A program made the position numbers and the translations under genes. Under the pieces are notes generated by a model that worked only from the letters and a program-made list of their open reading frames with translations, did not search any database and was not told where the DNA came from. Below are positions 671 to 34,398 of a stretch of 64,000 nt of DNA, in pieces. The stretch is taken from the NCBI GenBank assembly GCA_963971425.1, contig OZ020521.1, positions 24,940,012 to 25,004,011 of the forward strand. Reading direction: 5' to 3'. The stretch is from Bryoerythrophyllum caledonicum. Its lineage: Eukaryota > Streptophyta > Bryopsida > Pottiales > Pottiaceae. How positions within the stretch are numbered: the stretch's first letter is position 1; each line of letters begins with the position of its first letter.

Positions 671-700
671 AAACACCATATTTGTTATATTGGGAGATTT
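671..700 (+). repeat. AB1 left terminal inverted repeat
   Basis: It starts AAACACCATATTTGTTATAT and continues into GGGAGATTT. The target duplication ATAC lies immediately outside. The same B-side terminus, with few differences, ends AB2 at 43886 (reverse orientation), where similarity continues inward through a GCGACTCCC block. Confidence 0.9.
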
Positions 701-1656
701 AGTGACTCCCAAATTAACACATGTAGATAATAAGAGCTAAAGTGCACATCTAAACTCTACAATATGGAGGGATATGAGTTTCCATTAAATTGGGAGGTAA
801 TGTTTTCTACAAAAACCCCTAGAAAAATAAATCTTACGGATAACATTACATTACGAATCTAACTATAATATTGAAAAGAAGAACACATTAGTTGACACTT
901 CTTTTATACCACATGTGTTCATTGAATATGAATAGCTAAATATTCACACTCGATCCTACTAACCCGGATTAACACCATGCTCGAATTTAGCTAAAAGTGA
1001 GCTAAATGACGGACAAATATCCACTTGTAAGAGAATTAGCTAAACACATTTTGATGAGCCCTTTTTGATTTAAAAGAATTTCAATTCTCCTTGTCAAATA
1101 CACATTGGCAAAAAATATATATAACGAGTTTCAAATGATGGTGCTCAGAAGTGGGAAAAAAATTGCACACACTACCTCTTTTCGAACTAAAGTGTCCCCA
1201 TCACTTAGAGGTGCAATGAACTCAAAAAGGAAATTCCACACACTTTAGCTCCACTTGACCTAAAGTGCGCACCATTACTACGTACACTGAACTAAATAAG
1301 AAGATTTGCTCACACTTTAGCTCCACTAGAGCTAAAGTGCGACCCAACATTTACTTTCTATCATTCACCATGAAGGCAATTATTGGTATTATTGGTTTCA
1401 AGACTAGAAGCAATTTACCACATTGTTATTATAAAAATAAAAAAAAAACATACTGCAAATTATCACCGATACACAAAAAGAATGGAGAGAATATTTCATA
1501 GCAATCATTGGCATCACATTTTAAAGTCATACAGAGTGTAAATTAATGAAATACAAAATCTATAATCTCAGCACCAATGGATCTAACCATACTACATGAA
1601 GTATTACACATCAGAATCTAAAATCTAGGAAAAGGAAATCCATTTATCTAAGTCTA

Positions 1657-4488
1657 TTACAATTCGGACCTAGCAAGTGCTTCCAAGGAGGCCTTGATAA
1701 TTGCTACTTGTCCCTTCGGAATTTTTGTAGTTGAATCTTGCACATCACCTCCATCCCTCTTTGAAGACCTAGGTTTCCATGCTGTCAAGATTGAATCAGT
1801 ACTCTCCCACGTTACGGCTATCCCCTTTTCAATTGTCCAGCGAAGGTTGCAATCTGTATCCCAATCTTTATAGAACTTCATAACATCCCGATCGTGCGAT
1901 ATAGGGCGGAAGAATTGGATATGCACGGTGTTTGGCATATCCGGGTTAGAATTAGGATCTGAAACTGCTTGAGCAATCCAAAATGGACGCTCGCCCCCAT
2001 CACAAGGCCGCAATACAACAAAATAGCCAGCAAAAAGATCACGACCAACTCTAAAAGAAGGAGGTGGACGATCGCGTCTCTGGCCAACAAAATGCTCATC
2101 TTCACGGTACTCCTCGCGAACCTCACCCTCCGCTGAGAACTCATCTTCAATGGCATGGGCAATTCTCGTCGTTGGCCAAAAGCCGTCTTCCAATGATATC
2201 AGCGTATCCATTGGAATAATCAGAGCATCTCTAACATCACGCCAATAATACGAAAGTGGCTCAAAACGAGATCTGGCTTCAACAGACTCCCGCGATGATT
2301 GCTCCCAGTGATCAGGGAATCGTGAAAGTCCCTTCACCACCTCATGGAGATGCCGCATCATAGAAGGCTTCAATGCATCACGTTCTCCGCAAGGCCATAA
2401 AGATCTTCCTTCACAATCCTCCTTCCACAATTTGATGCCACTACCTTCTCCTCCTTTTGGAAGCCAATCCTCATCATGACAAAGGATTTTATACTTCATT
2501 ACCGGACAACCACTTGAGTCCAAATAAAACTTGAACTGATGAGCCTTTGTATGACCCTCCAAAGCTTCATCACCGTTCGCAATCATACCCCCAATGAACT
2601 TCTTAAAGTCAGGAACCTCTTAAATGAGATGCGAAATTGTGGGAACACTCTCATTTTTCATAAACGACCTCATGAGCAAAGGAATGGTTGGAAAACTTTC
2701 CTTCCTCAGAGTCATACTCCAATGTCCAAATAAGGCATCTATATCATCATGTGTATGACCAACTAGCATAAAATTAACGTACACCACGCTGAAGATGCGT
2801 TTTGCAATAAGGAGAGACCAAAAACAGAAAACAAATCTATTTTTGTTATCACCAACTGCATTGTCCATTTGCACATTCAATATTAGTGGCAAAGGCCTCT
2901 CTAGAACTAGGATATCTGGAATCGGCCCTAATGGATCCAAACACATCTCCGCACCCCGTAATACCGCCGCATATAATGGATGAGAACTAGATTCTGGAAA
3001 GAATTGCCGGGACGATGACTTCGGAGGCGCCTCCAGGTCACGCAATAGTTTTGCGAACGACCCGACCTTGTAATTGGCATCATGGGAGTATAAATCAAGG
3101 CCGTAATGGGTGTAACGCTAGTCCACATGACCATGGACAAGCATGCCTGTGATTGCAAGAGGCAACTTCATAAGCCCATCTAAGTCCTTTGTTTTATATG
3201 AAAAAACCGGGGAGGCAGTCTTTGAGTGATCCATCTTATCATGCATGATGGTAAGAACCTCCTGGGGCGACGACTTTGATCGAAATCGGTTCAGGTAGTA
3301 CAAGTCCCGATGTGAGAAAACAGAATCAATGTGAACCTCCATCTTCTTTTGCCATAGCAGTGATGCTTGTGTACCAGGTTGAGTAAGCTTCTTCTAATCC
3401 TGGTATTTGTCACAAGTAGAACAACGGGCAAAGTTGTCTCCACCTTTCTTGGCATAGTACTCAGGGAAGCTCACACGCCGAATCTTATTCAAGCTTGAGG
3501 TTGAGATAGGCGGCAATCCTCAATCAGCGAGATGATCATCAAGAAGCGGTATCTGATCCTTCCACTTAATATTTGCAGGGAGGACCTTTGCCACAGCCTT
3601 CTCGCCAGATGGGAGAACACGAGACTTGTGAGGCATGTGGTCCGCATGTCTATCGAGAATGGCTCCAAGAGCAGCAGTAGCCACAACCGTATGACCTCTA
3701 GGCTTACGCAAACCGGTATTCCCATGGTGTTGAGCCGCATGACCAGCGGCAGCGTCCTTTGCATTCCGATAGAAAGTACTCGCACTTACACCCATGATTT
3801 TCATCCAGGCATGGGCACAAACGTCCACACCCTCTAGGGTTACAACCTTCCTACCCGCAGCGTCTCTATGAAACTGTCTGTGAACATCGAGTTTGATATG
3901 ATTTCTGAACTGCACGATGGTCTCACTGTACAAGCGCGTCCGAAGGACTCTTATTCTATCTCTAGGATAGTGTTGAACACAGTTTTGACTACAACAAGTA
4001 TTGCTCGCAACAGCGTTAATGGAAAGAGGGGTCATGAGGAATTCAGCATTCCTGGACACTGTTGGACGTGTATTCCTTGAGGAATTGTCGTACGAACTAG
4101 AGCTCCTACCTAGAGGTCCGTTACGCTCAACCAACCAGACATTGTAAATGTCCCTAAGGCAATGATGGAAGAGACTCACACCGTTTAAGAAGACTTGTTG
4201 AATAGGCCAGGACTTAAACGAGTACCTCCACTCATTAGGAGCTTCCTCTAAAACAAAAGTACTGGACACCTGTACAACAACATTTGAATCCCCAAGAGGA
4301 CCAGAGGAACCTAGAAGTGCACTGGAGTGGACATTGCGAACCAACCCTTCCCCAACGCGAACACCCGAACCATTGTGAAGCAAAACAGTCATCCCGAACC
4401 AGAGACGGCGAGGAATAACATCAAACTCAGGAAGGTCTGGGTTCACGGGAGCGTCAACATGAACATCGTCGCCCTCCGAAGACGACAT
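1657..4488 (-). pseudogene. gene B of AB1: decayed DDE-like (DUF7869-type) transposase
   Basis: The minus-strand reading opens at ATG 4488 (MSSSEGDDVHVDAP), just after a likely intron acceptor (TGCAG|G). It shows a cysteine-rich CC...C motif and an HTH-like VCAHAWMKIMGVSASTFYR segment. The second half has CSTCD-like cysteines, HDKMDHSKTASP, NVQMDNAVGDNKN and VGHTHDDIDALF, the putative acidic triad of an RNase H-like fold. It aligns end to end with the element C transposase. In-frame stops: TGA 3520-3522, TAG 3394-3396, TAG 3118-3120, TAA 2620-2622. It keeps sense codons where AB2 and AB3 have stops (KRIF, DHWEQ), so it is the least decayed B copy. Family membership is from motif recognition, not a search. 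Confidence 0.8.
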
Positions 4489-4599
4489 CCTGCATTCCAA
4501 TGAGATACATATTAAATAATCCTGACAAATAAAAATGGGTAAACGCCTTGGAGGAATAGACATTTATGAAGAAGCATAGGAAGAGGGTAATTGATCTCG

Positions 4600-4995
4600 A
4601 ATCGAGGTAAGGTCTGGCGCTTGAAAATAACTATGATTCTAGTGAGTTGACATGGCAGACCAGGCAAATTTAGCTCGACTCGAGGTAAATTCATGCGGTA
4701 TAAGAAGAAAAGTATAAATTTTCATGCAATAAGCTATAATCCGAATATGAAATTATTTCACCCCTGACAAAGACAACTAAGCCCGACCCGACCTAAAATT
4801 ATGACTATCAGACTCATTGTCATTTTAACTCGAGTCAAGGTAAACAGAAATAGGACATCAGGTATGTCAGTTTAGCTCGAGTCGAGCTATACTTTCCTTC
4901 AAAAGAAGATAAGACAATTTAGCTCGACTCGAGCTAAACTGTCCTTGGAAAGATGATAAGACAGTTTAGCTCGACTCGAGCTAAACTGTCCTTCC
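4600..4995. repeat. cluster of AB palindromes upstream of gene B
   Basis: Near-perfect copies of TTTAGCTCGA-S-TCGAGCTAAA occur at about 4871-4891, 4918-4938 and 4965-4985, with degenerate copies from 4600 on. Equivalent clusters lie upstream of B in AB2 (39495-39720) and AB3 (49370-49810). They may bind an element-encoded protein or regulate the B promoter; the function is inferred. Confidence 0.75.
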
Positions 4996-7048: not shown

Positions 7049-7074
7049 ATGCCATATTTAACTATTTCTGGACT
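7049..7074 (+). repeat. element C left TIR
   Basis: A 26-bp terminus beginning ATGCCATATTTAACTATTTC, identical to the reverse complement of 16709-16734. TCGG precedes it. Just inside are variant palindromes CCGGATATCTCCGG (7176-7189) and CCGGAGATATCCGG (7374-7387). Confidence 0.95.
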
Positions 7075-7570
7075 TTGCAAAGTCCAAAAATAAGGAAGAA
7101 GGATTTCAGTGTAGTAGAATTGTGGCACCCAATAGATTGAGAGGGATACAAATAAAAATAAACGAAGTCATTCAGCCGGATATCTCCGGATGATTACAGT
7201 CAGACGATACGAATCGATTACAGTGATAGAACCTTGCTCAAGGCAAGGTACAGTATTATCGACAGAAATTGTACTGACTCAATTTTCTTCCCAGGGAGTA
7301 CTTAGGGGAAGAATTTAGAGAAAATGAACTTAGAGCAGAAGGCATTGACATTTCATGGATGCCGTTAAAAGAGCCGGAGATATCCGGTCGAAAGCAGGGA
7401 AAGCAGAAAACAGGTGGTGAGCTTTGAAAAACAAAATTGTTTTTTCGGAAGGGAGTCCGTGTACAAGACCATCACATACTTGATCAACTCTACGAGACAG
7501 CAATGATTAGTCTCAGTGAAACTCCTGCATGAAAGAGCAAAACCTATCCTGGCACTACCTCTGAAGACTT

Positions 7571-8008
7571 CTAAAGATCTTTCCAGTGCGCCGGCGCGTA
7601 CATGTCCGAATCAACATCAGACCCTGTGTCACAACCAGTTTGAAATGGGCTGCAGCCGCCCTCCGAAGAAGATTCCTCCTCGTCAACATACCAGAGGTCG
7701 TCCTCCTCCTCATCTTCAACCAAACGACCTCCGAAGACCGACTCATCTTCATCACAGTCGACCTCGTTCTCGTCCTTCGCTTCATAGTCGCTGCCGTCCT
7801 CCTCCTCTAGAACATACTTGCTCTGAGCGTCCTCCTCCAATTCGTCCCGAGCACGCCGAATGGAACCTATCGCCCCTGTGTACCCGACTTGAAAGCGTAG
7901 CAGTAGTCCCTTCTCCGAACCCTGAGCGTCGCTCACGATCCTTCGAGAAACTCTACGGTCTACCGAATCAGACTCTTCCCTCTCCCTCTTCCTACTTGCA
8001 AAAGCCAT
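7571..8008 (-). CDS. small acidic protein of element C (145 aa)
   Basis: The minus-strand ORF begins ATG (8008) with MAFASRKREREESDSVDRR, a basic KRER stretch usable as a nuclear signal. It then becomes strongly acidic (DELEEDAQS, EEEDGSDYEAKDENEVDCDEDES, DEEEDDLWYVDEEESSSE). No catalytic motif is visible. The composition would suit a chromatin-binding or transactivating accessory protein. It lies downstream of, and on the same strand as, the transposase, like a second product of a DNA transposon. The opposite-strand ORF over the same bases is proline/arginine rich and looks like a shadow. The function is unknown. Confidence 0.55.
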   Translation of the reverse strand: MAFASRKREREESDSVDRRVSRRIVSDAQGSEKGLLLRFQVGYTGAIGSIRRARDELEEDAQSKYVLEEEDGSDYEAKDENEVDCDEDESVFGGRLVEDEEEDDLWYVDEEESSSEGGCSPFQTGCDTGSDVDSDMYAPAHWKDL

Positions 8009-8993
8009 ATCCTCTCTCTCAACCCTGGCTATCGACTAACAAAACTAACAAGTTGAAAGACAAAACATGTGAATTGGTGCAGACCCGAACCCTTTCTTAT
8101 ACTATCCTCCCTACCAACCCATTTATTACAGGTCTCGAGCGTAGGTAAAGGATGAGTCATTGATAGAAGTCGCCATAACACCGAGACTGATAAAAATAAA
8201 GGCAGCTTTCACAGACACGAATGACCAACATGGGAGGCGACGCGTCAAGCGTGCTGTCGTAACGTGATGTGCGAAGTACAATCTCCGCCGCCAACCATTA
8301 GCATCACATGAATGATAAGAAGGTCCTCGTACAACTGATATGAAGTGTGTAATTGACCGCGTATTATAATTTTACTTATGGCATGTCAAAAATCTAAGAA
8401 GGAAACAGCCACGGGAATAACCGAAAGGTCTCTGATACATTGTTGAAACATCCATCGTAAATTGAAATGCATTATCGAAGCCACAAAAGATCTCCGGATA
8501 TGATTCAATACTATTCAGAACACCTAGGTAAGCTCAAAATTGGGAAGCTCAAAATTAGATCTCCATAGACGAGAATGGGGGATGTGAATCTCCTATCCGG
8601 AGATCTCCGGCTAGATCTCACTGACTGAAACATGGCAATATACGAACATGCTAAGGTCCACAAAATATTACTTCCACAGCCGGAGATCTCCGGTAAGCTT
8701 TCAGAAAGACGTGAGGGTCCAAAAATATAGCGCTGGCAGAATTGAGTCAACAGTAACTCTGTCACTCCTCAATGTACCTAAATTTCATTGAATGGAAGAG
8801 TACAATTTCGGTCCTCTTCACGCTGACTGGCAAGAGCTAAAAGAAAGGATGCCGAACTCGGGCCCAGATAAATGAATTCGCCCACAGCCGGAGATCTCCG
8901 GTGCTCTTCGGTGTGAACATAGCAACTCTTCGAGATTTTAAACGAAGAGAATTTCACAGAACTGAATTATTGGTAGAGGGACTGATAAACGTA
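8009..8993. other. element C intergenic stretch with palindromes
   Basis: Between the acidic-protein gene and the transposase stop. It contains CCGGAGATCTCCGG at 8597-8610, 8680-8693 and 8888-8901, the latter two preceded by CACAG. No conserved ORF is seen. The promoter of the acidic gene is presumably here. Confidence 0.7.
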
Positions 8994-11900
8994 TCAAGGA
9001 TCAGCGGCATTCGCTTTCTCTAAGTTCACAAGCGCTGCTTCTTTCATTTTCCGTGGAATGGACCTCGTAAGTTGGTTAACTTTGCTTGACCAGGTCGCAA
9101 ACAACACGGAACTCACATGACACCAAACAGGCTTCTCTTGGTCCGCAACCCAAGTGGCTTCCCAACAGTCCTGGTACTTCCTCTTCAGATTCTTCTGCTT
9201 GTTATCAGGCTCCCAATACTTAACGAGGAATTTCCCGTAGTTGACATTACCATCTTCCCTGACGACCTCCGAAACTGCTCTTCCCTGCCAGACAGGATAG
9301 ATGTCAGGATCACTAGATCTTACTAAAACCCAGGAGCCATGACGAATGTCACGCCAAGGATTAAATGTGGACTTGGGGGCTTCATTAGCGGGTCCGCAGT
9401 AAGGCTCAAGAACCTCATCCTCGGGAGTCACATCCTCTGGTTGTGGAAGCAGTCCTAGAAGATTTTCACCTCCCTCATGAGGGCCTCTCCAATCATGGGC
9501 AGGCCAGAATCCCTCTTCGAGTTCGAAAGGCGTCTGGGGAAGTGGCTTGTCAAGCTCGTCGATGACATCCTTCCAGTATTGCAGGTATGGGCGAATGGAG
9601 TCCGCGTACCCTGCGCACTTAGACATTCCGGACGCCCAGTAGTCAACGTACTTCCGAAGCCCCGTCTTTGTAAAGTTTTTGTTCTCCGTCGCTTTCCTGG
9701 CCTTGTCTCTGGCAACATCTTGGTTTCCAACAGGGCTCTGCTCCTCATTACCCCATATGGGCTTGAATGGAACGGGCTTGGGAGATCCTGATGGAAGCAT
9801 GGGACGTCCGAAGTCATCTACCTTCCAAAGTTTTATCGGCTCTCTGTTCATGGGTAACCACTCTGCGTCAACGGCAGATTTCTTGAACTTCATGACCGGA
9901 ACACTGTCATTGTCAACGAAGAACTTGAAAAGATGCATATCACTAAGTCCTACCAGACGTCCCGCCCCGCTGCATAGATAGCCATCGACATACGATTTGA
10001 AGTCGGCGACCTCTTGGATAACTTCCGGCGTGAAGGCTAGTTTCTGTGACTTCATGAATGCCTTCATCAAATCCGCTAGAATATATGTACTACTTTTCTT
10101 CAGTTCTTTCGAAAGATGACTAAAGTAAGCATCAATATCTTCATGCGTATGTCCGACGACCAAGAAGCCAACCTGTATCTCCTTGAAAACACCTCGAGCA
10201 GTTAGCAGTGATAAGAATGCCATCAAGTATTGGTTCTTGTTATCCTTCGCGGAGTTGTCAAGCTGTAGGAACAATTTCGGTGGCAAAGGTTTCGGTCCCT
10301 TAAAAGCACTCGGCTCCACGGGCTCTAAAGCGTCCACGCACCTGCTCTTTCCCCTCATGAGCGCCGCGAACATCGAGTTTGGAGGTGGGTGCTCGAAGAG
10401 TGCGCGCGTCTCATGTAAAGGTGCTCCCTCAAGCCGCCGAAAAAGTTTTGCCAGGGAGGAGATGGTGGCTTTCGAATCTCCAGGCCATAAAGCAGGAGCA
10501 TAGTGAGCATACGCTCCGTCGACAAGACCGTGAGCCACCATTCCAGTGACATTCATGGGAAGTTGTCCGAGACCAGATGTCGCCTTCGTAGTCCTCCACA
10601 TGCGAGGAAGTGCAGTCTTCGCAGTGTCCATCTTGTCGTGAATGACACAAAGAAAGGTCAGCGGCTTCGCCTTCGACTCCTCTCTCCATGTCGCGTAGAG
10701 CTTCCGGCAAGATTGCTGGTGATTCAAGTGAGCCTGCCTGTTGCTATAGAATAGCTCGTAAGCGGGCGTTCCCTTTGGAGTCGTCAGTAAGAACTGATTG
10801 AATTCATCGCAAGTACTGCATTTTGCGAAGGTGCTTCCAAATGGCTTAATAGCAACATTCTCGAAGAATTCCTTTCTAACCCTACTAACTGTGGACTGAC
10901 TTACAGGAGGAAGACCGTAGGAGTCGTTTGTCTGCAAGATGAAAAAATTACCAAGTGAGGACAGTATATCAGAAGGACAATCCAGCAGATAGGGCGAAGA
11001 ACAGAGTATTGCAAAGAAAAGAAATTTTAGTTCAACATTGACACAGCCGGAGATCTCCGGTTCACTAACTAGGACTTTGGTCGACTGAAGAAAGAGAGTT
11101 CAAATCCATATCATTGTGCAGGGACAAGTAACTTACAGCATTGACGCTTGCTCGAATTTGATTCCAGCTGTTTCCCGCAGGAAGATACTTGAGAGTGTCA
11201 ATCCGACCATTCCCGACACTACGCATTTGGTGAGGCATCTGATCCGCGTTGTCATTAATAATCGACGTCATTGACCCCATTGCTTGAATAGTGGCAAGCC
11301 GTGGGCGCTTAATGCCCTTGTTACCGTGAGTTGCATTGATGATTCCTCTACTGAAATGTGCGATATACGAGTGAAATGTGGACTTCCGAATTCCATGGAT
11401 CATGTACCATGCAACGGAGCAGACCTCCGTTCCTAATAGAGTGACGTACTTTCTCTTCCGGTCCCCTTCAATTGAGTGAAACTGCCCGCCTACCGAGATC
11501 GCATACTCCTTTCGGTCTTCAAAGGATTTGTCATAGAATTTCTGTCTAACAGAAAGAGTCTGGGACTGTTGAAAATATTGGCAGCATCGTCTGGGACAGC
11601 ACATTTCCGAGCTGACTTTGCGAATTTCGTCATCCATAGTCCTCTTGGTGTACAAGGATTCTTTCTTGTTAAGGTCTTGCTGTCGGGAAATAAAGCGGTA
11701 AGGCTCCTTTGCACGACCCCCCAAATAAGCACCAGAATCTGGTTGTAATGGCAGGGATGCAAAATGATCTATTGTGCTTTTCAAAGACCTCCCGGAAGGA
11801 AAACAACATTCAAGAATGGGCCACGATTCATGACTCATAATTCTCTCCGTGTCCCCCACAAAAACGTCGAGGACAGTTACACCAATGTTATCTTCTCCCA

Positions 11901-12450
11901 AGCATCCACTTCGAAAGTGATCCCCTGCTAACGACGCCATGATTCTACCAGAGCAGAGTACTAACAGATTCCCGTCCAATCGTTGCACTTCAAGTCCAAC
12001 CCATCTCTCACGTGGAACGAAAGGGGACTCGTCCGACCGGAGATCTCCGGTTGGAATCTTCACATCCGCCCTTCTCCACAGGACCGTCCGCCGAAGTGTT
12101 TGAACAAGTGAACAATATCCGCGTTGCAAGGGAATTAGTGGAAATTCTTCCGCCAAAGACGTTATGGCCGTTGGTCTGAGTAATACGAACTCACTGGAAC
12201 CGACTGGTATGTCAACTCCAAGCCATTGACCAACTGGGTGAACCTCGACAATTGATGCTTCTCCAATTTCGCCTGAGCCTGGCCTCAAGAGGTTCACGGA
12301 CAATCCTGACCACAAAACCTCCGACCTTCCAGTAGACTCCTCGGATGGATCATCTTCTTCCATAGAATCCGCTCGACACAATTCGGGGCATTGAGCTGCG
12401 ACCATGGCAAGATCGTCCGAGTCACTCTCCCACCAATCAGAGTCAGACAT
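8994..12450 (-). CDS. element C transposase, DUF7869-type DDE-like, two exons (about 1,083 aa)
   Basis: Exon 1 runs from ATG 12450 to 11137 (438 codons) and ends at a strong donor, CT|GTAAGT. Exon 2 starts at 10931 after TTGCAG and runs to the stop at 8994; the phase is 0 on both sides. Exon 1 starts with an acidic tail (MSDSDWWESDSDD) and has a CCPRRCC cysteine cluster and an HTH-like segment near VCSVAWYMIHGIRKSTF. Exon 2 has CSTCDEF (C476, C479), HDKMDTAKTALP (D537, D540), LQLDNSAKDNKN (D663) and VGHTHEDIDAYF (H699, E702, D703). I read these as the D-D-E/D triad of an RNase H-like transposase. There is no internal stop or frameshift. The B genes of AB align with it throughout. The intron contains a CCGGAGATCTCCGG copy (11047-11060). 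The family label is from memory of the HTHEDID signature. Confidence 0.85.
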
Positions 12451-16708: not shown

Positions 16709-16734
16709 AGTCCAGAAATAGTTAAATATGGCAT
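16709..16734 (-). repeat. element C right TIR
   Basis: Perfect inverted match to 7049-7074, followed by the TCGG duplication at 16735-16738. Just inside are CCGGAGATATCCGG copies at 16324-16337 and 16497-16510, so both termini carry the ATATC variant of the palindrome. Confidence 0.95.
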
Positions 16735-16738
16735 TCGG

Positions 16739-21075: not shown

Positions 21076-24000
21076 GTATGACAATAAACTTAAACAACAA
21101 CTCAAACACAACAACATTCGGACTTTAAACATTCCAAAAGTATAGTAAACCAATGATATCGACGACCCAACTCATGTCCACTTCTCGTTATATTTTCACA
21201 TGTGTCCAAGAGCTTCAGTCTCGCTTCAACCACTTGAGAACCTTAAAGAGTGAGGTTCGTGAGTGATTAAAGTGTGAAGTGAAGCTCTTTCACAATTCTG
21301 AGAGTTAAACGACAAGTAGCCATGATTTGAATAAAAATGTATAGGAAAGTCGTTTGAATGAATACTGTAAGTGTCAGAACTGTTCAGCTATGCATTCCAT
21401 GCATGAGCACTTTAGCTCGAGTGGAGCTAAAGATGAAGCTAAAACTTGAATACAACATTGATACATTGGTGTAATTATAGTCTCCTAACTCAACTCACGT
21501 CTACTTTTCGTTCACCTCTCATAAATCGTGCAAGAGCTTAGGTCCCGCTTCAACCACTTGAGAACCTCTAAGACTGAGGTTCGTGAGTGATTTAAGGGGA
21601 ACTGAAGCTCTTCCACAGTTCTGAGAGTTGAACGAGAAGTAGGCATGAGTTGATTGTAAGCGTCTAAAAGAATGGTCTAATTGACTAGATTTTGTTGCAG
21701 AGTATTATTAACATACTTGTATAAAGTTACACATTAACTCGAGTCGAGCTAATGTGTCTTCTCGCCATTCTAATCGGATGATCATTTAAACAATCTAATA
21801 TTTGTGCTCCGTTTTGTGTTTGTGTAGATTTGAGAGGGACAGGATGGTGTCTCAGCTGCAGCACTTCTTCCAGCCAAAGCATGTCGACATTGACGATGAC
21901 AATGGAGACGACAACAACCACTTAGATTGCAGGGAGCTCAAGGATCCTTCGATGACACTGAAGTGGACGCTGCTGTGGGCCCCCTACACAAAGAATCTAG
22001 TGTTTGGTCAGAACTTCGCTGGTGATATCCGTGAACCCCAGCACACCGACTTCAAGACCAAAATTATTGATGTAGTCCATGAAGATAACGATATAGTGAA
22101 GTTGTCGTGTGAGACAACCACTGAGTCTGTCGATCCTTATATGTTCACTATTGTAGTGAACAATACTTCGTCTCCCTTCTGTATCTTCGACTTAGTCAGT
22201 TCTCTTAGGGGGTCACAGTTTGATGACATAGTGGCTCAGGTCGACCACGAAATCTCCCAAAAGAAATGGGAGACTAGTAGTGGTCAGCCGCTGAAAGCGA
22301 AGGCTGTAGCGAACAAACTCCGCGTCATTCTTTCCAGAATGAGTACTTTTGCCGCTCTTGAGAAGGCAAAATTAATCGCGTCTAGGCGCCCAATAGAACT
22401 TTCGATAGTTTCTGGTGCCGTAACCGGTAGCCAGAATATAAGTCAAGCATCGGTACCGGTAAGAACTCCTGGTGCAAGAGCAAGTCGAAGCACCTTGCGC
22501 AACACGCTGTCCGCGTCTCCCGTCAAGGAGCGCTCAGCTGCCAAGAAGCCGGAGACTTCTTCCAGGAAGAAGACGAAACTTGTTTCAGAGGAAGAGTTGG
22601 CCAATTTGATGGCCTCTGCACTGTTGGAACTCCCTTCGGCGCTCGGGTTCGGAGAGGTAACAAACTACACCAACGTCCAACAGATATATCAGAAATTCTG
22701 GACGGAGTGTCAGAGCTGTTTCTTCCAAGGAGACAGAGAGATGAAGATCGAGCTTGATGTGATGAGGCTGCATAATGCACCGCCGGAGTGGACGATCCGT
22801 GCATTCGAACCTCGGGGTATGGAGGAGTTGAAGCATTACTACCTCGAAATGCCGGACAAGACGGAGAAGCAGACTCTCTGCGTCATGCCTAAGCTCGATC
22901 ATATGCCAACGAAGGTTGAGGAGCTCAGCGACTGCGACTTCTATATCATCAACGGCCAGCACAGCGTTGCTGCATCAAAGTCGATGATAAACGGCAACGT
23001 ACCGGAGGTTATGAGAAGGCACTTCCGAACATGGCAGTGTTACATTGTCTGGACGGAGGACCCTGAGAAGCTGAGGAAGATTTCCGCGTATTATAATCGC
23101 GTAAATTACTTGGTCCAATTCAAGTCGACGTGGGCAACAAATATCCTTGGCTCTCGCGCGTTGTGGATCCAAGCTGGTAGACCGATGCCGAAGCACTCCG
23201 CCGCAGGCATTCACGAGTCCCATAGATCAGGTCGGAGAACGGCAGTGGAGATTGCCAAAGACAAGAAGTTTGAGGTAATTAATCTTAACCAAGGTCATGC
23301 ACTTTAGCTCGACTCGAGCTAACTTCTGTGCTTGTCCTTCTTAGTATAGTTCTGTATATAGATTCAAGCACTTAGAGTGTACACTCTCCGGTTGCAAGTT
23401 AGCTCGACTCGAGTTAATCTGCATTTTTGGGTCCTGCTGGTTTGGTTTTTTTCCTCTGTGGTTGTACGCTAAATCAACACTACCAATGTTCTGCATAGCC
23501 ATTTCTAAACGCGGTTCGTGAGCGCTTCGCAATGATCGACGTCGCCAAAAGCCAGGCAGCGCTCAAGAAAGCCGGTAAGGCGAAAGAGCTCTCGATTACG
23601 AACAAGGTGAAGATTATCACCTCGTCCAATGAGACCTTCAAGCTCTGGTCGGATGTCATCTCTTCGGCGGCGCAAGGCGACCTCATCAACGTGGATTCAA
23701 CAACGTCGCCCTTGTCAAAGTTTAAGGACGCCAAGTCCTAGGTGCCTGAGAAAGATGGGGTATTGACGCGTGAGTTCTTTAAGTTTTTCGGCAATATGAC
23801 CGAGGCTGATCACGCAACGCTGTGTAAGCATATTCTCAATCGATCAGGGCCATCGCTAAAACTACCTTATCCTAAGGTGGTTGTAAAGCAGCCGCAATCA
23901 GTGCTGGAGGATTGCTGCAGCACCCGGGACTGGGTCGATCGAAAGAAGAGGAAGGAGGTCGCTCGGATGGGGCTTCAGTTGATCAGGTCGGAGCTCGCCT

Positions 24001-24535
24001 TCTTCAACAGCACTGGAGCGTACAGTCGTTCCAACTGGCAAAAGTTCAAGAAGGACTACAACGTCAGCAAGGCCTCAAAGCGTGCCCTCTTGGATTGGAG
24101 TCCACCGGATTCGTACTACGCAAACTTAAGGCAGACGCAGTTTCGCAACTGCAAATGTGAAGATCTCTTTCCGTATGCGAAGGAGTTCTTCAAAGTCTTC
24201 CTCGATGTGCGGGCACGGTTCGTTGCACCTGTAAGGGCCTTGCACTTTCGTCCATACAAGGCGGCAACCAACTCGCTCGGAGGATGGCCCTCGGATGCGT
24301 GGCGTAACTTGGGCTGCAACGTGAAGCTCGGCATCATCGACTTCCGTAATATCCCTGGGTTCGCAGGGAAGGCAACGTCGTCATTGGAGAAGCCCTTCTT
24401 TGACGAGTTCATGACAATGTTCGCATAAAAAGGGCAGCCTTCTCTCACCAGTCTTCCAGCGTGGCTCTTCATTTGCGGCGACGAGCAGTCACACCTTCAA
24501 GTGACAGCGTTTGTTGAGGGCCCGTCGTTGTGCCA

Positions 24536-27532
24536 TGTGAGAGCCGCAAAAACGGCTCACGGTGATGAATGGACCTCACATCGGGTCCATTAAGGCTAAT
24601 AAGTGGTGAAAATGGGTTATCCCATTGGTTAGCTCGTGGTCTTTTGATCAGAATAGCTAAATAGCCTTCCATGCGCTAATTCCTTAACTAGGAACCACTT
24701 ATTGGCAATCGCAGAATTTAGGTAGTTAGCCAAAAAAAAAATAGAAAGGAAAAATGAAGAAAAGATAGAAAAGAAAAAAAACAATAGAAAAAAATTAAAA
24801 TTAATAGTGATGGAGAAGAATTTACCTCCTACCAAGTCGTGGATCGCAATTGGTCACGATGAAGAAATCACGAAACCAAAAAAATGGAAGAAGAAGAGAA
24901 ATGATGGTGAAGAGAAGAAAAGAAAAGAAGAGGCTTAAAAGCCCTTAAAAAAATAGTGGGAAAGGTCCAAAAGGCTTGGACAACCCCCTCATTACTCGCT
25001 AAGTAAAATTAGGAATTACCCCAAGCAAAGGGGATTCAATTTAGGTAGATTAAATTAGATTTAGCCTCCTTGGAAATTAGCTAATAGCTCACTTATTAAG
25101 ATCATACACACCCATGTGGCATGGAGTTAATGTTTAGATTTAGATATTCCTTGGTTAGTGGGACACCCACTCTTGTTAAATGCAAGGGTGGCACGGAATA
25201 AGTAGTCAAAGGGGTTAGTAGGTTTTGTAAGAAGGAAGCCATTTATGGAAGAAGGCCAAAGGCGGCAGGGAACTTCTTTGAGAACTCAAGGAGAGCAGAG
25301 GTTGGGGGGTTACCCCCTGGAGAAGCCTCATTCGGTTAGTGTGCGAGGAGTAGGAAGAGAGAGAACAGGGGAGAGACTGAATTTGTGTGGGGAGAGAGCC
25401 GGAAGCCCTGGCCCAGAATTGGTGAACGAGATTAGATTAGATCACAGAAGGAAGAAGATCACACGAGCTGGAGCAAGATCACAGGACAAACAAGAGGAAG
25501 AAGATCACACGAGCTCGAGTAAGCAAGCACAACAAACAGGAGGAAGAAGATCACACGAGCTGGAGTGAGCAAGCACGACGAACAGGAGGAAGAAAATCAC
25601 ACGAGCTGGAGTGAGCAAGCACGACGGACAGGACGAAGAAGATCACACGAGCTGGAGTGAGCAAGAACGACGAACAAGAGGAAGAAGATCACACGAGCTC
25701 GAGAGAGCAAGCACGACAAACAGGAGGAAGAAGATCACACGAGCTGGAGTGAGCAAGCACGACGAACTTGAGGAAGAAGATCACACGAGCTGGAGCAAGA
25801 TCACACGACGAACAAGAAGAAGAAGATCACGCGAGTTGGAGCAAGATCACACAACGAACAAGAGGATAAAGATCACACGAGCTGGAGTAAGCAAGCACGA
25901 CGAACAGGAGGAAGAAGATCACACGAGCTGGAGCAAGATCACATGACGAACAATAGGAAGAAGATCACACGAGCTGGAGTGAGCAAGCACGACGAACAAG
26001 AGGAAGAAGATCACACGAGCTGGAGTGAGCAAGCACGACGAACAAGAGGAAGAAGATCACACGAGTTGGAGTGAGCAAGCACGACGAACACGAGGAAGAA
26101 GATCACACGAGCTGGAGTGAGCAAGCACGACGAACACGAGGAAGAAGATCACACGAGCTGGAGTGAGCAAGCACGACGAACACGAGGAAGAAGATCACAC
26201 GAGCTGGAGTGAGCAAGCACGACGAACTTGAGGAAGAAGATCACACGAGCTGGAGTGAGCAAGCATGACGAACACGAGGAAGGAGATCACACGAGCTGGA
26301 GTGAGCAAGCACGACGAACAGGAGGAAGAAGATCACACGAGCTGGAGTGAGCAAGCACGACGAACAGGAGGAAGAAGATCAAACGAGCTGGAGTAAGCAA
26401 GCACGACGAACACGAGGAAGAAGATCACACGAGCTGGAGTGAGCAAGCACGATGAACAGGAGGAAGAAGATCACACGAGCTAGAGCAAGATCACACGACG
26501 AACAAGAGGAAGAAGATTACATGAGCTGGAGCAAGATCACACGACGAACAAGAGGAAGAAGGTCACACGAGCTGGAGTGAGCAAGCACGACGAACAAGAG
26601 GAAGAAGATCACACGAGCTGGAGTGAGCAAGCACGACGAACAAGAGGAAGAAGATCACACGAGCTGGAGCAAGGTCACGAGAGCTGGAGTGAGCAGTTGG
26701 ATGGCTAAGAATGGAGGGTGAACCGAATTAAATCAGGGAGCCCCTCTTCTCCCTCGGACCTCTTAAAATTCCTTGTGTATGACGTGAAACCTAATTTTCT
26801 AAATACAAAAACCACGCGGAAGCGCTGCCAATTTTTTGGTAGAATTAGGGTTTGCTATATATTCAACTGAACAATCGATTAAAACGCCATTAGTAAGTGA
26901 ACGGAGCTGGAGGCTCATTCTAAGTAAGGCTGGGGTGGATTCTTGTGTGAATGGATGTGGTATATGCGTAGGAATGTCGTGCACGATCTTGAATAAACTT
27001 ATATGTTGAGTGTGCACTGCTGGTCGTTGGTTATGAGTTCATGATTGAGTCGCATGGTTGATTGAATGCTGCCCTCATGTTAAGCACAAAAAACTAATAA
27101 GAATAAAAAAAACAAACATAAGAATCGGAGTTAGAGTCAAGGAGATAATTAGGATTATAAGTTTGTAGAAAATAGGGACGCCTGTCTGCTGCCAACTGGT
27201 TCCAGGGTCACACCTAAGCCTAAAACTGATCATTAAGGGTCTAATCAAGTTCGGAATGCTGAATTGAATCCATAAGAGTTGGAAACGTTGCATTCGGAGC
27301 CCTAGAACAAAAGTTACACTTGTTCAAAGGTGGGTTCAATCAAAAGGTTGGATTAAGTCACCACCTCACTAATCAACCACAAGGGACCTAAGTGAACATG
27401 AGATGTGTCACCATGCTTGTATAAGTTGTGTATGAATGGGCTGAGGATTGGTTACACAAGGAACTAGGCCCTCGTATTAGGATCTTGTGTTCAAGATAAG
27501 CCACCCTTTAGGGGCGGTTTATTTGGCTCACA
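24536..27532 (+). mobile_element. TG...CA element 1 (solo-LTR-like, 3.0 kb) in gene A
   Basis: It starts TGTGAGAGCCGC and ends GGCTCACA, interrupting the A coding frame inside TGC-CAT|CCG; only CCA/CCAT is duplicated. It is homologous in reverse orientation to 31592-33734, sharing both termini and flanking motifs such as AATGGGTTATCCCAT. It encodes no protein. TG...CA ends fit a solo LTR, but the longer imperfect inverted termini (about 19 bp) would also fit a non-autonomous DNA element. Confidence 0.75.
25448..26670 (+). repeat. 46-bp minisatellite inside TG...CA element 1
   Basis: About 26 tandem copies of a 46-bp unit of the form GAAGAAGATCACACGAGCTG-GAGTGAGCAAGCACGACGAA-CAAGAG, with a variant having GCAAGATCACAC in the middle. 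The ORFs over it only translate the repeat. The homologous element at 31592 has just two related 26-27 bp units near 32434-32490, so the array expanded in this copy. Confidence 0.92.
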
Positions 27533-29695
27533 CCATCCGTACGACGTCCTGCAGTCGAAGTATCTTCCCTCCGACAACGAGCGCTTGGGGGGATTCGCGC
27601 CGAAGACCAACAACGCTCTCGACCCGGTTCGCCTCCTCTTTCTCTTTAAGAAAGAGCTTACGCAGATTCCGGCCGTGAAGAAGATCTACGCAGCTCTGGA
27701 GCATGTGTTGCACACCAAGCTACGCAAGTACAACGAGCTGGCGTACTCCATGAACATGAACGAGCTGAGAATGGAGTTCTTTATCAAGGTTCTGGAGCTG
27801 TTCTGCAAGAAAGGGGATTCTACTGTCCACCTGTTTTGCGGGACGAAATTACTGATTGCGAGTGTGGTGAGTATCCCTGCAGTTTAGCTCGACTTGAGCT
27901 AAACTGTTGATCCCCTCTCTGGTTGTGAATGTATTGTTTCAGAGAGGTCGTCTCTCATGCTTTTGTAGCGTGGCACTTTAGCTCGAGTCGAGCAAAGTGC
28001 CGGCTTATATTTATATGGTTTTCTAGCAGTCGTCAATCGCGTCATATTCTTCCAAGTTTTAATGGCTGCGTTTTCCTATCAGTGTTCTTTTGTACTCACT
28101 TTAGCTCAAATCGATCTAAAGTGTAACTTGTTTAATCCATTGGTGTGCAGATGTTGGATCTGGAGGCATTCTACATATCCCACGACACCGATGAGCAGGA
28201 CCTGGACGACGCCCAGGATGTAGCGTTGACGTTGGATCGGGCCGATTTCGTTATTGGTTCATATCACGTCAGCGCGGAGATCTGCCCCGAGCTTGGAGAG
28301 GCTGTTTCCAAGGGGAAGGGGAAAGCGATTATCGATCTCGTCGATGAGGAAGAGGAGGATGTGGTCCCGAGCCCCATTGGTGTGTGCCCGAGCACCAGTA
28401 TTGTCACACCTGATGCCGATTCCCATGACGACTTTGATACCAACACTCCGGTGGAGCTTCATAGTGGCTCTCAGTCTAAAGCGGGAGAGACAATGGGTAC
28501 CTCGCCGCAGCGGCTCGATTTCCTGGAGTTTGAATCGCTTGATATCTCCGAGAGGCCTCATTTAGCTCCAACCTTGGGTGGGTCATCCGCTCGCCCCGCA
28601 ACCAAGAAGAGGAAAGTCGCCAACGCGACCGGCCGCTCTCCGTTGGCAACGACGAGCAGTGCTCAGGATTACATTAGGTTTATCGCCCTCGAGAAGAAGC
28701 TCGAAGAGGAGGCCACCCTGATGAGGTTGATGGAGCAGCGGCTGGCGGAGCGTGACGAGGAGCTCAGGGATATGCAGCGGAGGCGTGACGAGGAGATGAA
28801 GAGGGACCAGGACCAGAGGCATAACGACATGATGCTCATGATGCAGAGATTCATGACGGCTACTATGCCTCTTGTCGCCACAACACAATCCGTAGTGAAT
28901 TCTACGATCCCTCAGCCTCCAATCTCAGTTGACGATGGGACTGGGAGACTGCCTTGCGGTTTGCTTATGCCGTCTCCGGCGGGTTCCTCCCCCGTCTCCA
29001 TGGGGGCTCAATCGCTGCCTGATCCCCGCCCACCCGCCCCTCTTCCTCCCCGAAGTCGCCCACTCGGGACGATTCTGTCGTTGATGTCCCCAGCTCATCG
29101 TCAGGTTAGTGTAACGTAGTTACAAGTGTTAGAGGCAGAACATTTTGTAAATGTCCAATTTTGTACTCCAGTATTTTTGTTAATATTATAGTACTCAGTG
29201 ATCACTTTAGCTCGACTCGAGCTAAACTGCTAGACATCTGACGACTCTGACTTGTATCAGTGTCCAATGTGCGCATGAACTGATGGGTTGAAGTTGTTGA
29301 ATTTTTTCAGTTCTTAGTTTTGGTGATGACGCGATTGCTCAACCAGTCGTAGATGAGGTCGTCCAAACTGCGGTCCCAGTCGTAGAGGATGTCGTCCAAT
29401 CTTCGGCCGTGCTCGTAGACGAGATCAATTGTGATTCTCCTGTCCTGGAGCCCGCTCTTCTTGTCCCGGAACCGTGCCCCCAAATAGTTCTGGAGCACTC
29501 GAGGCCCCTTGACACCGTGCAAGTTTTGTTGGAATCGATGGGGGTCCGAAACGAATTGCTCCAAGACGATGAAGTTCTCGAGGTGCTCTTCTAACACTAT
29601 CCACACTCTGCGCTTCCCCATGTTGCTTCCCCCCTGTTTGCTCTCTTCGTTCTACATTATGTTGACTTGTCGTTGTTAATGAATCTTTAGTAATA

Positions 29696-30520
29696 TTGTT
29701 CGTTCTCCTGGCGTTTCCGAACCAGGTCTGCGAGGCATCAATAAGTGGTGCCAGTAATTTAGAAGAAATACCTAGAGTCTATTCAGATTCCGAGGGCAGG
29801 TGGTTGAATGTTGTGCTGGACCTAAATGGGATTCTATGCACTTGTAAGCCATCGTGGCAGGCCAGGAGATCTAGGGACTCTATCCCGTCCATTCACTTGG
29901 CTTCGATGCCGGCCGAAGTAGGCCCTAAGCTTGTTCGGGTGCCCCCTAATTGTGCTGAATTCCTTACGAAGTTGTCAAAGATTGCCACCATCACGGTCTG
30001 GAGTTCAATGATGGAATCTACAACACGTGAGATATGTCAATATCTTTTTCAGCATAGTTCTGCGTATCCTCTCAGGATCTTTGGTCAGGAGAGTTGCGAT
30101 AGGGTTCCCGAGCGTAGAGTTGGTAACAGAACAATCTACATGAAGGAATTTGGCACTCAGAAGGACATCTTCTTGAAGACGTTATCGAACCATCTCTTTA
30201 ATAGGTTGGGCCGTAAGTATACTCCGGCAAATACGCTTGTCAATGACGATAGCCCGATTAAGCATGTCCTCAATTTGCCGGAGAACGTCCTTCTTCTTCC
30301 ATCATGGTTGCACAACCATGATGGCGCAAGATATGATTCTGTACTGCTGGAGGAATTGCTACCATATCTCTTTGACCTTCATCAGTTTTCGGGTGGCCTA
30401 GCGCAGTATCGTGCTGAACATCCCTCGGGCCGGGAGATGTTCTATAATGATCAGAAGACGTGTGGTCAATCTGCGAGTATTTGTAACGCAATTCAAGCCT
30501 ATCAGAATCTCCGTTCCTAA
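29696..30520 (+). CDS. FCP1/NIF-like HAD phosphatase-domain protein (cargo of AB1)
   Basis: The open frame contains the FCP1-homology motifs in order: VVLDLNGILC (motif I, D42 and N44 in this frame), ITVWSSMMESTTREICQYLF (motif II), then NTLVNDDSPIKHVLNLPENV (motif III/IV). Members of this HAD family dephosphorylate serine/threonine, classically the RNA polymerase II C-terminal domain. The second motif I aspartate is asparagine (DLN for DxD), so catalysis may be weak or lost. The first codon is unclear: CCGAACCAG at 29717-29725 is a possible acceptor, and DDEVLE|GTGCTC at the end of gene A is a phase-compatible donor. It could therefore be the C-terminal domain of protein A instead of a separate gene. 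Confidence 0.6.
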   Translation: MFVLLAFPNQVCEASISGASNLEEIPRVYSDSEGRWLNVVLDLNGILCTCKPSWQARRSRDSIPSIHLASMPAEVGPKLVRVPPNCAEFLTKLSKIATITVWSSMMESTTREICQYLFQHSSAYPLRIFGQESCDRVPERRVGNRTIYMKEFGTQKDIFLKTLSNHLFNRLGRKYTPANTLVNDDSPIKHVLNLPENVLLLPSWLHNHDGARYDSVLLEELLPYLFDLHQFSGGLAQYRAEHPSGREMFYNDQKTCGQSASICNAIQAYQNLRS

Positions 30521-30897
30521 TGTAGTTGGAAACGCTTAGATCCTTAATACACTTTAGGTCGAATAGAGCTAAACTGTTTCGATTGACTGCAGCTCCATTT
30601 TATAAATTTTGTTGGGCCGTGTTTTGTATATATTTTTTGATAATACAAATGGAGATGTTTCTCCACTGAATTTGTTGTGCGGATTGGATACCTACTGCTG
30701 GTGAAATGTTGTCCTTTTTTTAATGATTGGAATTTTTATCTATTGTTCTGAGGTATGTGGGTGTCACTTTTGTTGAAATTTCTACAGGGCTGTGATTGTT
30801 GGGCGTCCGTGGATTCCTGCTGGGCCTACATGAGTTCGTTGTTTCCCTTCGGAGTAAAGGGTTTTTGTTGCACTCTGCAGCAACCGCGCAGTCAACC
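30521..30897 (+). other. short intergenic region with one AB palindrome
   Basis: A variant palindrome (TTTAGGTCGAATAGAGCTAAA kind) at about 30551-30573, then AT-rich sequence and a likely acceptor TCTGCAG (30875-30880) just before the gene D start. It probably includes the 3' end of the FCP1-like gene and the leader of gene D. Confidence 0.5.
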
Positions 30898-33800
30898 ATG
30901 GATTATTCGACCATGGCAGTGGAGGACGGAGTTGTTGAAAGCCCTATTGCGCGGGAGCCAATTCATGAAAGGAACAATTCACCTTCGCCGCAGTGGCCTC
31001 GTTCAGTTCCGGGGTCTCCGCGCCTAAACCTGGATAATTGTATTCCGGCAAAGCGTATTCTCTATGACGGTTTAAGGGATGCCACTCACCACCGCTCGCT
31101 CACGGTGCGTGTTATGCTGACCTCCAAGTTATTGCACTATTGAGTCGTTCTTGCCTAGAGAGTCTTGGTTTGTTGTTGAGGTACCTTGCACTCTTGTAGT
31201 TTTGCTTCATTTGAGCTTGTTTTTGTTCATTGGATGTTAAATGTGCTCTGTGAATTTCCCCTTCTGCATTTTAGCTCCATTCGAGCTAAAGTGCACTAGG
31301 ATGGATCTTGATGATACAGTTTTCCTGTACAGTTTTCACTCAAACCAACTCTCTTACTACACGAAGTCATACATAAACCAATTACCCTTACCATATGACT
31401 ACATTACTATGACTACACATAGTAAGCACTCAGAGCATGACTCTGGAACCGGGCAGGAGAACATATGTCCCGTTCCCGTAGCCGTTCCCACCCAGGTCCT
31501 CAAAAATATGACTACATATATGACTAGTGCATGACTGGAACCTCTTAGGACTGATTTTAGACTAAACCAATGACTGAGGTGACTACGCAGTTGTGAGCCA
31601 AATAAACCGCCCCCTAATAGGGTGGCTTATCTTGAACACAAGATCCTACATATGGGATGCAGCCCCTTGTGCAAACATACTTTAACCATTCATACAAGCA
31701 TGATGACCCAAGGCGTGGTCACTTAAGAGGGTTCGTTAATAATTAGTGATGTGATGGCTGAATTCAGCCTTAGGTTGAATCCAACCTTTAGACAAGCGTA
31801 AATTCCGCCCCAAAGCTTTGTTTCCAATGTTTTAAAGCTCCATTCGGTTCAATTTTGCCTTGTGAACTTGATTAGCACCTTAACCACCAATTCCAGGCCG
31901 AAGTGCGACCCTAACAGCAGCAACCAGCAGACAGGCTCCTCTTTTTATGTTAAAAGTTTAATTCTTCATTATCTTCGTGATTATGACTCCGTTTTTTACG
32001 TTTGTTTTGTGTATTCTTATTAGTTTTTCTTGCTTAACACGATGGCAGCCTTCAATTGATCATTTGACTCGACCCTGGACCTCCCAGCCAGCGACCAGCA
32101 GTGCACCTTCAACATATGACTTTATTCAAGATCATGCACCACATTCCTATGCATGTATCACATTCATTCACACAAGAATCCACCCCAGCCTTACTAAGAG
32201 TGAGCCTCCAGCTGTGTTCACTTACTAATGGCGCTCTAATCGGTTATTTAGTTGAGTTGATAGCAAACCCTAATCCTAGTGAAAAATTGGCAGCGCTTCC
32301 GCGTGGTTTTTGTATTTAGAAAATTAGGGTTCAAGTCATACACATGGAATTGAAGAGGTTCGAGGGAGAAAAGAAAAGGGGCTCCCTGAGTTAATTCGGT
32401 TCACCCTCCATCCTTAGCCTTCGACTTGTTTGGTCAGCTCGTGATCTTGCTCCTCTTGTTCAGCTCGTGATCTTGCTCCTCTTGTTGGTGCTCTTCACTC
32501 CGCAGCCCGTATCTTCGTCGTCACAGCTTCGATCCGCGCGTTCTTGAGCTTGTTGAAAAGCCAACGTTCTAATCTATCTACTCCTAAAATCTTAGCCCGA
32601 TTGGACAAGAACTCCGCTACTGACGAGGGAAAACCTGAGGCCGTATGAGATCCGCCACCGATCCTCCAGCTGGTCGTCCTCACTCCACCGCCCGTATCTT
32701 CGTCGTCAGAGCTCCGATCCGCGTGTTCTTGAGCTTGTTGGAAAGCCAACTTTCTAATCTATCTACTCTCTTATTATCGCAACGATTGAATCACATTCCA
32801 GCCCACAGGAGGGGGAAATCTGAACCCTACCTCTCTCTCTCCTTCCACACACCTCTCTCCGTTTCCTAGCTCCTACCACACACCTCTCTCACTCCTACCT
32901 CCCACCCTTCGAATGAGCGCCCTCCAAGGGGGTAACCCCAAGGCCCTTGCTCCCTTCTTTGTTCCCAAGGTCGTTCCCTTCGTCGTTCACAGCCGCCATT
33001 TTGGGTGGGCACATTAATGGTCACACTAAACAACTAGTAACTAAAAGCTAATAAATCACTAGCCACCCTTGCATTTAACACAAGTGGGTGTCCCACTAAC
33101 CAAGGAATATCTAAATCTAAACTTTGACTCCATGCCACATGTGTGTGCATGATCTCAATAAGTGAGCTATTAGCTAATTTTCAAAGGTGCAAAAATCTAA
33201 TTTAACCTACCTAAATTGAATTCCCCTTGCTTGGGGTAATTCCTAATTTACTTAGTGATTGATGAGGATTCTTTTCCACTTCTTTTTGGACCCTATTGAC
33301 TATTGACTATTGGCTTTTAACGCCCCATTCTTTTTTCTTTTCTCCTCACCATCCTCCTTCTTCTTCTCCCATTTTTTTGGTTTTGTGATTTCTTCATCGT
33401 GACCGAATACGGTCCAGAACTTGATAGGAGGTAAATTCTTCTCCACCACTACTCATTTTAATTCTTTTCTAATTTTCTTTTGTCTTTTTTCCCTTCTCTC
33501 TTTGCATTTCTTTTCTGTTTTATTCCCTTTTTTTTTCTTCCTTTTTGGCTAACTACATAAATTCCGCGATTGCCCATAAATGGCTCCTCTTTTAGTGAGG
33601 GGAAAGGCCACTTGGCCATTTTAATCAAAAAACCACGAGCTAGTCCATGGGATAACCCATTTTCACCACTCATTAGCCTTAATGGACCCGACGTGAATTC
33701 CATTCATCACCGTGAGCCGTTTTTACGGCTCACAGCAGTCATATGCGCTTAGTCACATCCAGTCACATTGGGCTGGTTTTCTTGTAGTGTGTGTTGTCGT

Positions 33801-34105: not shown

Positions 34106-34187
34106 ACTGTTTGATTAGTAATAGGGCGATTGTGTTTTGCGTCGAGGTAAATTAGTGTTGTGTGTGAATTTTTTTCATGAAGTTTTG

Positions 34188-34193
34188 AATAAA
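34188..34193 (+). terminator. polyadenylation signal candidate for gene D
   Basis: AATAAA, 83 bp after the gene D stop and about 205 bp before the AB1 right terminus. Nothing else gene-like is seen between 34106 and 34368. Confidence 0.4.
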
Positions 34194-34368
34194 GCTTGGA
34201 TTAATAGTATATGCTTCCTTTACCGTTACCACTTTTTTGGACAATCAGCTATTTTGGTCCATCCATGGTATGAAATACAATATTTTTGATACATTGTCTT
34301 TATGCTTTGCACCTTCAAATGTCTATATTTATTGATACTTCAACCACCATATTTCTCCATAGTCATGG

Positions 34369-34398
34369 AAATTTCCCAATATAACGAATATGGTGTTT
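34369..34398 (-). repeat. AB1 right terminal inverted repeat
   Basis: The reverse complement starts AAACACCATATTCGTTATAT and continues into GGGAAATTT, 28/30 identical to the left terminus. ATAC follows at 34399-34402. Confidence 0.9.

Follow-up and report, generated by a model that had tools for sequence, protein, structure and literature searches.

Several described systems bear on element E, a giant DNA transposon of Bryoerythrophyllum caledonicum. E lies within the 64,000-nucleotide stretch analyzed here (the window; contig OZ020521.1, C9:24940012-25004011, in a genome of 437 Mb), and its DNA is tiled by a palindrome and carries a gene for a predicted ParB-fold protein. ParB-parS, Noc and KorB of bacteria have palindromic sites on the DNA that is recognized, and theirs is the fold predicted for the N-terminal domain of gene B of E; unlike them, the E family is a eukaryotic transposon with about 30 sites per element. 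The closest functional analogue appears to be VANC of the Arabidopsis VANDALs, which are a different kind of transposon. VANC is an element-encoded, sequence-specific anti-silencing protein, and its short motif is dense in noncoding parts including introns, is often tandem, and differs between related families (PMC5735166 and PMC10398659, available portions). The VANC motif has nine bases in one orientation and is not a palindrome, and no ParB fold or methyltransferase is described in the available portion of PMC5735166.

In design, the closest relative of E, likened by description only, is the Ectocarpus element Sola1-1_Ec32, a 21.5-kb Sola-1 element that is likewise a DNA transposon of about 20 kb with an opposite-strand gene for ParB-like and DNA methyltransferase domains (1,104 amino acids). 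An earlier proposal is that the ParB-methyltransferase genes of algal transposons act on the element that carries them, by binding and modifying it (PMC12477816, in part). The host of Sola1-1_Ec32 is a brown alga and not a plant, and the methyltransferase assignment is weaker in the E family. We found no binding site for the algal protein described in the available portion of PMC12477816, and palindrom-, FCP1 and phosphatase do not occur in its main text. An earlier reading of the window made from the sequence alone (the sequence-only reading) knew of no plant DNA transposons with such cargo. The Ectocarpus element is a precedent for the cargo (PMC12477816, in part). Among the titles and abstract openings of open-licence literature, we found no ParB gene with tiled palindromes described for a land-plant transposon.

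Mobility, ends and genes of the E family

E is a decayed member of a high-copy transposon family, complete at its ends. Its A terminus (AAACACCATATTTGTTATATTGGGAGATTT, at 671) and the partner at 34369-34398 are identical at 28 of 30 positions, as the sequence-only reading had reported, and the two end types, A and B, are distinguished by the sequence immediately inside the terminus. Searching the genome with the 30-bp terminus gave 1,155 + 1,151 matches (2,306) at up to three mismatches, and no match for the backwards control. The matches listed gave 12 inward-facing pairs less than 30 kb apart, 10 of them A-B and two A-A, on contigs C1, C3 and C7. There were exact 4-bp duplications at all 10 A-B pairs checked (TCAA, TTGA, TGAA, TAAA, TTTA, TAAA, ATTA, CAAA, TATT and TCTG), the chance of a 4-bp match being 1 in 256 per pair. 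A matching duplication was absent from both A-A pairs checked (P4 and P7). The inverted A-A pairs lie at C1:42923427-42947345 and C3:23726607-23749187, with ends 22-24 kb apart, and may be chimeric, nested or rearranged copies.

We fetched three whole A-B elements, P3, P6 and P8, of which P8 lacks nothing but its outer flank, and all were collinear with E freed of its later insertions. Matched blocks were 72-97% identical to E, and 91-97% for P8. Another copy in the window, AB2, is also collinear with the E core. The family is a real, mobile DNA transposon of about 18 kb, with many hundreds of copies in the genome. Its members are probably cut-and-paste elements of about 18.4 kb with 30-bp inverted ends, 4-bp duplications and a DDD-type transposase. 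The sequence-only reading had named two outcomes that would refute it, termini not paired around the same genes and duplications that do not recur. Both were looked for and neither occurred: the termini are paired around a collinear gene set in P3, P6 and P8, and the 4-bp duplications recur. E without three later insertions (C, X1 and the block at 31329-33787) measures about 18,590 bp, which agrees with the core of about 18.6 kb given earlier.

The target duplication of E had to be redefined. All four bases occur at the first position of the terminus among the 100 A-end matches listed, so the repeat proper begins AACACC. In this register the duplication is TACA (668-671) versus TATA (34398-34401), one base off. 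E also contains its own unoccupied copy of the target at about 20115-20131 (reverse complement CATTGAATAAACAATC), the length of which fits the TACA/TATA register and not ATAC/ATAC. The ATAC/ATAC register proposed earlier was dropped on these two grounds. When the flanks of E were joined (one base out of register), the resulting AB2 sequence could be aligned over the junction with this unoccupied stretch, in line with the earlier claim that an empty site is restored in AB2.

Gene A is probably a DDD-type transposase. The conserved D of its three motifs was present in 26/26, 31/31 and 31/31 of the rows with a residue there (motif only). Pfam gives only DUF7869 for this gene, a name that we did not find in open-licence literature. 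The named relatives of gene A point to a moss as the host. In E there are in-frame stops at 3520, 3118 and 2620, and P8 has an 856-codon open frame at the same position. The Sola superfamily is described as having a DDD transposase, 4-bp duplications and inverted repeats of 11-1124 bp, with some elements larger than 15 kb and an occurrence in Physcomitrella (PMC10741241, in part). The E family has a DDD transposase, on motif evidence, and inverted repeats of about 30 bp. There were 4-bp duplications at 10/10 of its A-B pairs and at 3/3 copies of a second family (C-type, below), three of four bases at E itself, and none at AB2 or at the two A-A pairs. A ParB-like gene, a phosphatase and palindromes are absent from the definition of Sola in the available portion of PMC10741241. 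The E family therefore appears Sola-like by published description, a resemblance that we do not take as membership of the superfamily; the earlier guess of Sola was a good one, the transposase, duplications and size all fitting the description (PMC10741241, in part).

The divergent arrangement of the transposase gene and gene B, which is ParB-like and methyltransferase-like, had been described correctly. Exon 1 of gene B encodes a domain with a predicted ParB/sulfiredoxin fold. The second half contains motifs, SPPDSYY and FGGTK, that by eye hint at a methyltransferase, and exons 2 and 3 were joined by eye at splice-like sites. Pfam lines below the cut-off were HTH_Tnp_Tc3_2 (0.028), FtsA_C (0.067) and, in one relative, DUF6551 (0.063). 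A DUF859 match in the second half, found in 8/18 members, was not credible (expectation value 0.11 or worse). Gene B of E has one stop and is split by the 3-kb insertion X1. What had been called a complete giant transposon is thus complete in its ends and not intact, given the stops in its transposase gene and the stop and split in its ParB-like gene.

Palindromes and ParB-like genes in two families and a third locus

The palindromes are the most unusual feature of the element; the sequence-only reading, which is partly supported overall, was silent on them. The E-family palindrome, m1, is TTTAGCTCGASTCGAGCTAAA, and it is nearly absent from the DNA around the elements. We compared 164 kb, consisting of the window plus 100 kb of flanks. 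At up to four mismatches there were 28 copies of m1 in the E core, 28 in AB2 and 30 in AB3, an older copy. There were none in the insertions C, X1 and X2, in 28 kb of right flank or in a further 12.4 kb. One was found in 52 kb of left flank, and 50 Markov sequences of the E core gave a mean of 0.02 and a maximum of 1. P3, P6 and P8 contain 30, 32 and 33. Over the whole genome, m1 occurs at 11,112 places at up to two mismatches, with none for the control; at this threshold E has 18, P3 16, P6 23 and P8 23. The sites lie upstream of genes A and B and in both introns of gene B. Only one of the 28 overlaps coding sequence, at a splice edge, coding sequence being 7,506 of 18,904 bp. Between E and its three sisters, mismatches in m1 versus other noncoding DNA were 3.7 versus 4.0%, 9.6 versus 12.6% and 10.4 versus 14.9%, and gap columns in m1 numbered 0, 2 and 0 beside 756, 754 and 699 compared columns. 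The tiling of the E core suggests that the element marks its own DNA.

The nested element C belongs to a second family with a DUF7869 transposase and a different palindrome, m2 (CCGGAGATCTCCGG), with 14 copies in C and none elsewhere in the 164 kb. There were 2,718 exact places in the genome versus three for the control, and the places among the matches listed group into four clusters, of which three span about 15 kb each. If palindromes accompany ParB, full-length C-type elements should carry a ParB-like gene, an expectation that we tested by fetching two of the four clusters. Both full-length elements have such a gene (hidden Markov model values of 2.1e-5 and 2.3e-6), and in the first a profile comparison gave a probability of 93.4 and an expectation value of 2.6e-7 over 163 columns. 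They contain 21 and 22 copies of m2, DUF7869, and exact duplications of TAGG and ACAA. This evidence comes from two fetched elements of one family. Like the VANC motif, m1 and m2 are, by these counts, family-specific and dense in noncoding parts; the avoidance of coding sequence was shown for E only.

A third, divergent ParB-like frame (2.4e-7), marked by the motif YIIGGQHTYLACRAL, is located about 12.3-13.0 kb beyond the left edge of the window, and NIF-like frames are nearby. A 9-mer scan without a preset motif gave the palindrome m4, GTCGGC-N5-GCCGAC, with 11 copies at up to one mismatch in the 9.2 kb around this frame, none elsewhere in the 164 kb, and none in the Markov control. The evidence for m4 comes from this one locus. 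DUF7869 was undetected there and was found in the 164 kb only in copies of E and C. Also flagged by the scan were two AT-rich words, tandem arrays in C and X1, and, at 98-100 kb, an array that was discounted as belonging to the repeats of a hAT-like element.

The phosphatase domain NIF (PF03031) was detected in E (8.4e-13), in the first full-length C-type element (4.1e-13) and at the m4 locus (4.9e-5). Because ParB-like and FCP1-like genes are also present in a full-length element of the second family and at the third locus, they look like core genes of the element class and not like host cargo of a single element; the sequence-only reading had described them as host-like enzyme genes.

Proposed self-recognition and its alternatives

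We consider it somewhat probable that E is a Sola-like giant element with a ParB-like protein that reads the element's own palindromes for self-recognition. The ParB-like protein would bind the palindromes that tile elements of its family (m1 in E, m2 in C and m4 at the third locus), cluster on the element, and mark its DNA or chromatin, with the second half of gene B modifying the DNA. Such marking could keep the element transcribed or recognizable for transposition, the phosphatase would aid transcription, and the outcome would be a system of self-recognition, perhaps of anti-silencing. A wider proposal is that a class of giant eukaryotic transposons runs parS/ParB-like self-recognition. Each family would have a ParB-fold protein and a palindrome particular to it, and that protein would coat and mark the DNA of this family only. 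A fused modification domain and a C-terminal-domain (CTD)-type phosphatase would be the effectors, and the whole would be a selfish device for anti-silencing or self-recognition, co-diversifying with its sites. This we put forward tentatively, as a possibility that falls a little short of probable. The family-specific palindromes are candidate binding sites, and three pairs of palindrome and ParB-like gene in one genome make the idea of self-binding directly testable by binding assays. If true, sequence-specific self-recognition of the VANC kind would have arisen a second time, here on a fold most familiar from DNA partition in bacteria, in elements abundant enough (2,306 termini and 11,112 palindromes) to shape the genome.

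Several observations weigh against self-recognition by a ParB-like protein. Pfam ParB_N matches nothing in the genome, in the gene B protein or in 22 aligned members that were scanned. Neither ParB nor a methyltransferase in gene B is backed by a Pfam family above the cut-off. The methyltransferase half also lacks a match among Protein Data Bank (PDB) profiles, its motif lacks conservation, most relatives having GPTDLYY, and the second halves of the E and C ParB-like genes do not align (probability 0.1). Among the sites themselves, m1 is conserved only a little more strongly than the rest of the noncoding DNA, 9/21 copies of m2 in one full-length C-type element lie inside long stop-to-stop frames, and m4 at up to two mismatches has 14 copies inside its region and 8 outside, the weakest of the three cases. 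Finally, the short C in the window keeps its palindromes without a ParB-like match, and the hAT-like element nearby has a palindromic array too; such arrays can arise without ParB.

These last two observations also favor the transposase as a different reader. In this view it is the transposase that binds the palindromes, which would be repeats of the subterminal type that have extended inward, and the ParB-like gene has nothing to do with them. C retains its transposase with 14 palindromes, and the array of the hAT-like element (about 94-100 kb) lies near its transposase frames. We regard this as unlikely, though a serious competitor. The m1 sites occur many kb away from both ends, within introns and spacers, and are missing from the last core block (33735-34398), the m4 locus combines tiling and a ParB-like frame with no detectable DUF7869, and E and C have unrelated palindromes despite their homologous transposases. 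Still less probable, in our judgment, is that the palindromes have no dedicated reader and are by-products, a repeat spread in each family by slippage and gene conversion. Some sites do form tandem arrays with 46-53-bp spacing, and the constraint on sites is mild; against this, dispersed single sites keep the same order in P3, P6, P8, AB2 and AB3, m1 is nearly gap-free, and family specificity was found in three cases.

The remaining alternatives concern the nature of the element. One is a giant carrier of cargo like the Starships, its extra enzymes being host genes that a single element had picked up; an FCP1-like protein would suit this, since its phosphatase family is found in eukaryotes. 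This reading is largely contradicted by the same gene types in a second-family element and a third locus, which were apparently inherited, and we consider it very improbable. We give scarcely any credence to an integrated virus or virus-like element, which its size and several genes might suggest. Such an origin does not fit the DDD transposase, the inverted ends or the 4-bp duplications, no viral family scored above the cut-off among the part of the frames scanned in Pfam, and a phage or viral origin of gene B was dropped because phage matches had expectation values of only 3 or worse and there was no confirmed relative in IMG/VR contigs.

Organization of the window and neighboring elements

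Self-comparison and the fetched flanks show that copies of a single element family lie nested in the window, with E inside AB2, and AB2 abutting the older AB3 (Table 1). A clean insertion of AB2 into AB3 was not upheld, the flanks of AB2 lacking a matching duplication (ACAT / TGCG).

Table 1. Positions of features, in window coordinates.
Feature	Position	Strand	Details
Element E	671..34398	+	repeat proper 672-34397; duplication TACA 668-671 / TATA 34398-34401, 3/4 bases
A-type terminal inverted repeat	671..700	+	continues AGTGACTCCCAAATT
m1 near A end	1244..1336	.	starts 1244, 1316
Gene A, putative transposase	1657..4563	-	DUF7869 (PF25273, 3.8e-28); acidic motifs HDKMD, MDN..GDNKN, GHTHDDID
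m1 upstream of gene A	4669..4985	.	4669, 4824, 4871, 4918, 4965; last four at ~47-bp spacing
Nested element C	7049..16734	-	terminal inverted repeat ATGCCATATTTAACTATTTCTGGACT; duplication TCGG/TCGG; DUF7869 transposase; 14 m2; shorter than 16.9- and 17.8-kb copies
DUF7869 transposase of C, two frames	8994..12495	-	PF25273, 1.5e-43 in 8994-11099
m1 in spacer	16801..18636	.	16801, 16870, 18547, 18616
m1 upstream of gene B	20597..21753	.	20597-20860 at ~53-bp spacing, 21053, 21411, 21733
Gene B exon 1	21799..23304	+	predicted ParB/sulfiredoxin-fold domain, INGQHSVAAS; 59 relatives; no Pfam match above cut-off
m1 in gene B intron 1	23303..23418	.	23303 at exon edge, 23398
Gene B exon 2	23489..24537	+	methyltransferase-like, LLDWSPPDSYY; stop TAG at 23739 in E; exon start inferred
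Insertion X1, splits gene B exon 2	24538..27532	.	ends TGAGAGCC...GGCTCACA; ~5-bp duplication CCATG/CCATC; 46-bp tandem repeats
Gene B exon 2, remainder	27533..27878	+	sister copies VVQLFGGTKLFIAS / VQLFCGTKLLTAS near its end, motif-I-like
m1 in gene B intron 2	27883..28120	.	27883, 27977, 28100
Gene B exon 3 or separate gene	28149..29119	+	LDLEAF.ISHDTDEQDLDDA, then charged coiled-coil-like stretch
m1 between and after last genes	29206..31290	.	29206, 30553, 31270
FCP1/SCP-like phosphatase frame	29666..30520	+	NIF, PF03031, 8.4e-13
Later insertion block	31329..33787	.	263-bp repeat + X2 (31592-33734, X1's family)
B-type terminal inverted repeat	34369..34398	-	continues CCATGACTATGGAG
AB2, A-end half of copy that received E	34399..43886	-	A end 43886; resumes 670-1; B end ~8.1 kb left of window
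AB3, older disrupted E-family copy	46144..60889	+	resumes right of window

The repeat family of X1 and X2 is marked by ends like TGTGAGCC...GGCTCACA, and a further copy lies outside the window, 8646-10785 bases to its left. The duplication at X1 is alike at 4/5 bases, and the family is perhaps a solo long terminal repeat or another inverted-repeat element. An assembly gap of 200 N lies at 44529-44728, and its two sides (42474-44528 and 44729-46785) share a repeat of about 2,055 bp (99.9% identity) that is probably a false duplication introduced where scaffolds were joined. In the stretch dividing the two parts of AB3 there is a DUF4216 frame at 62788-63783 (- strand, 3e-10), a domain that is common in CACTA transposons. 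The transposase frames of the hAT-like element, recognized by eye, lie at about 94.8-99.2 kb in window numbering, beside an array of GGGGCGGGGACGTCTCCGCCCC-like palindromes.

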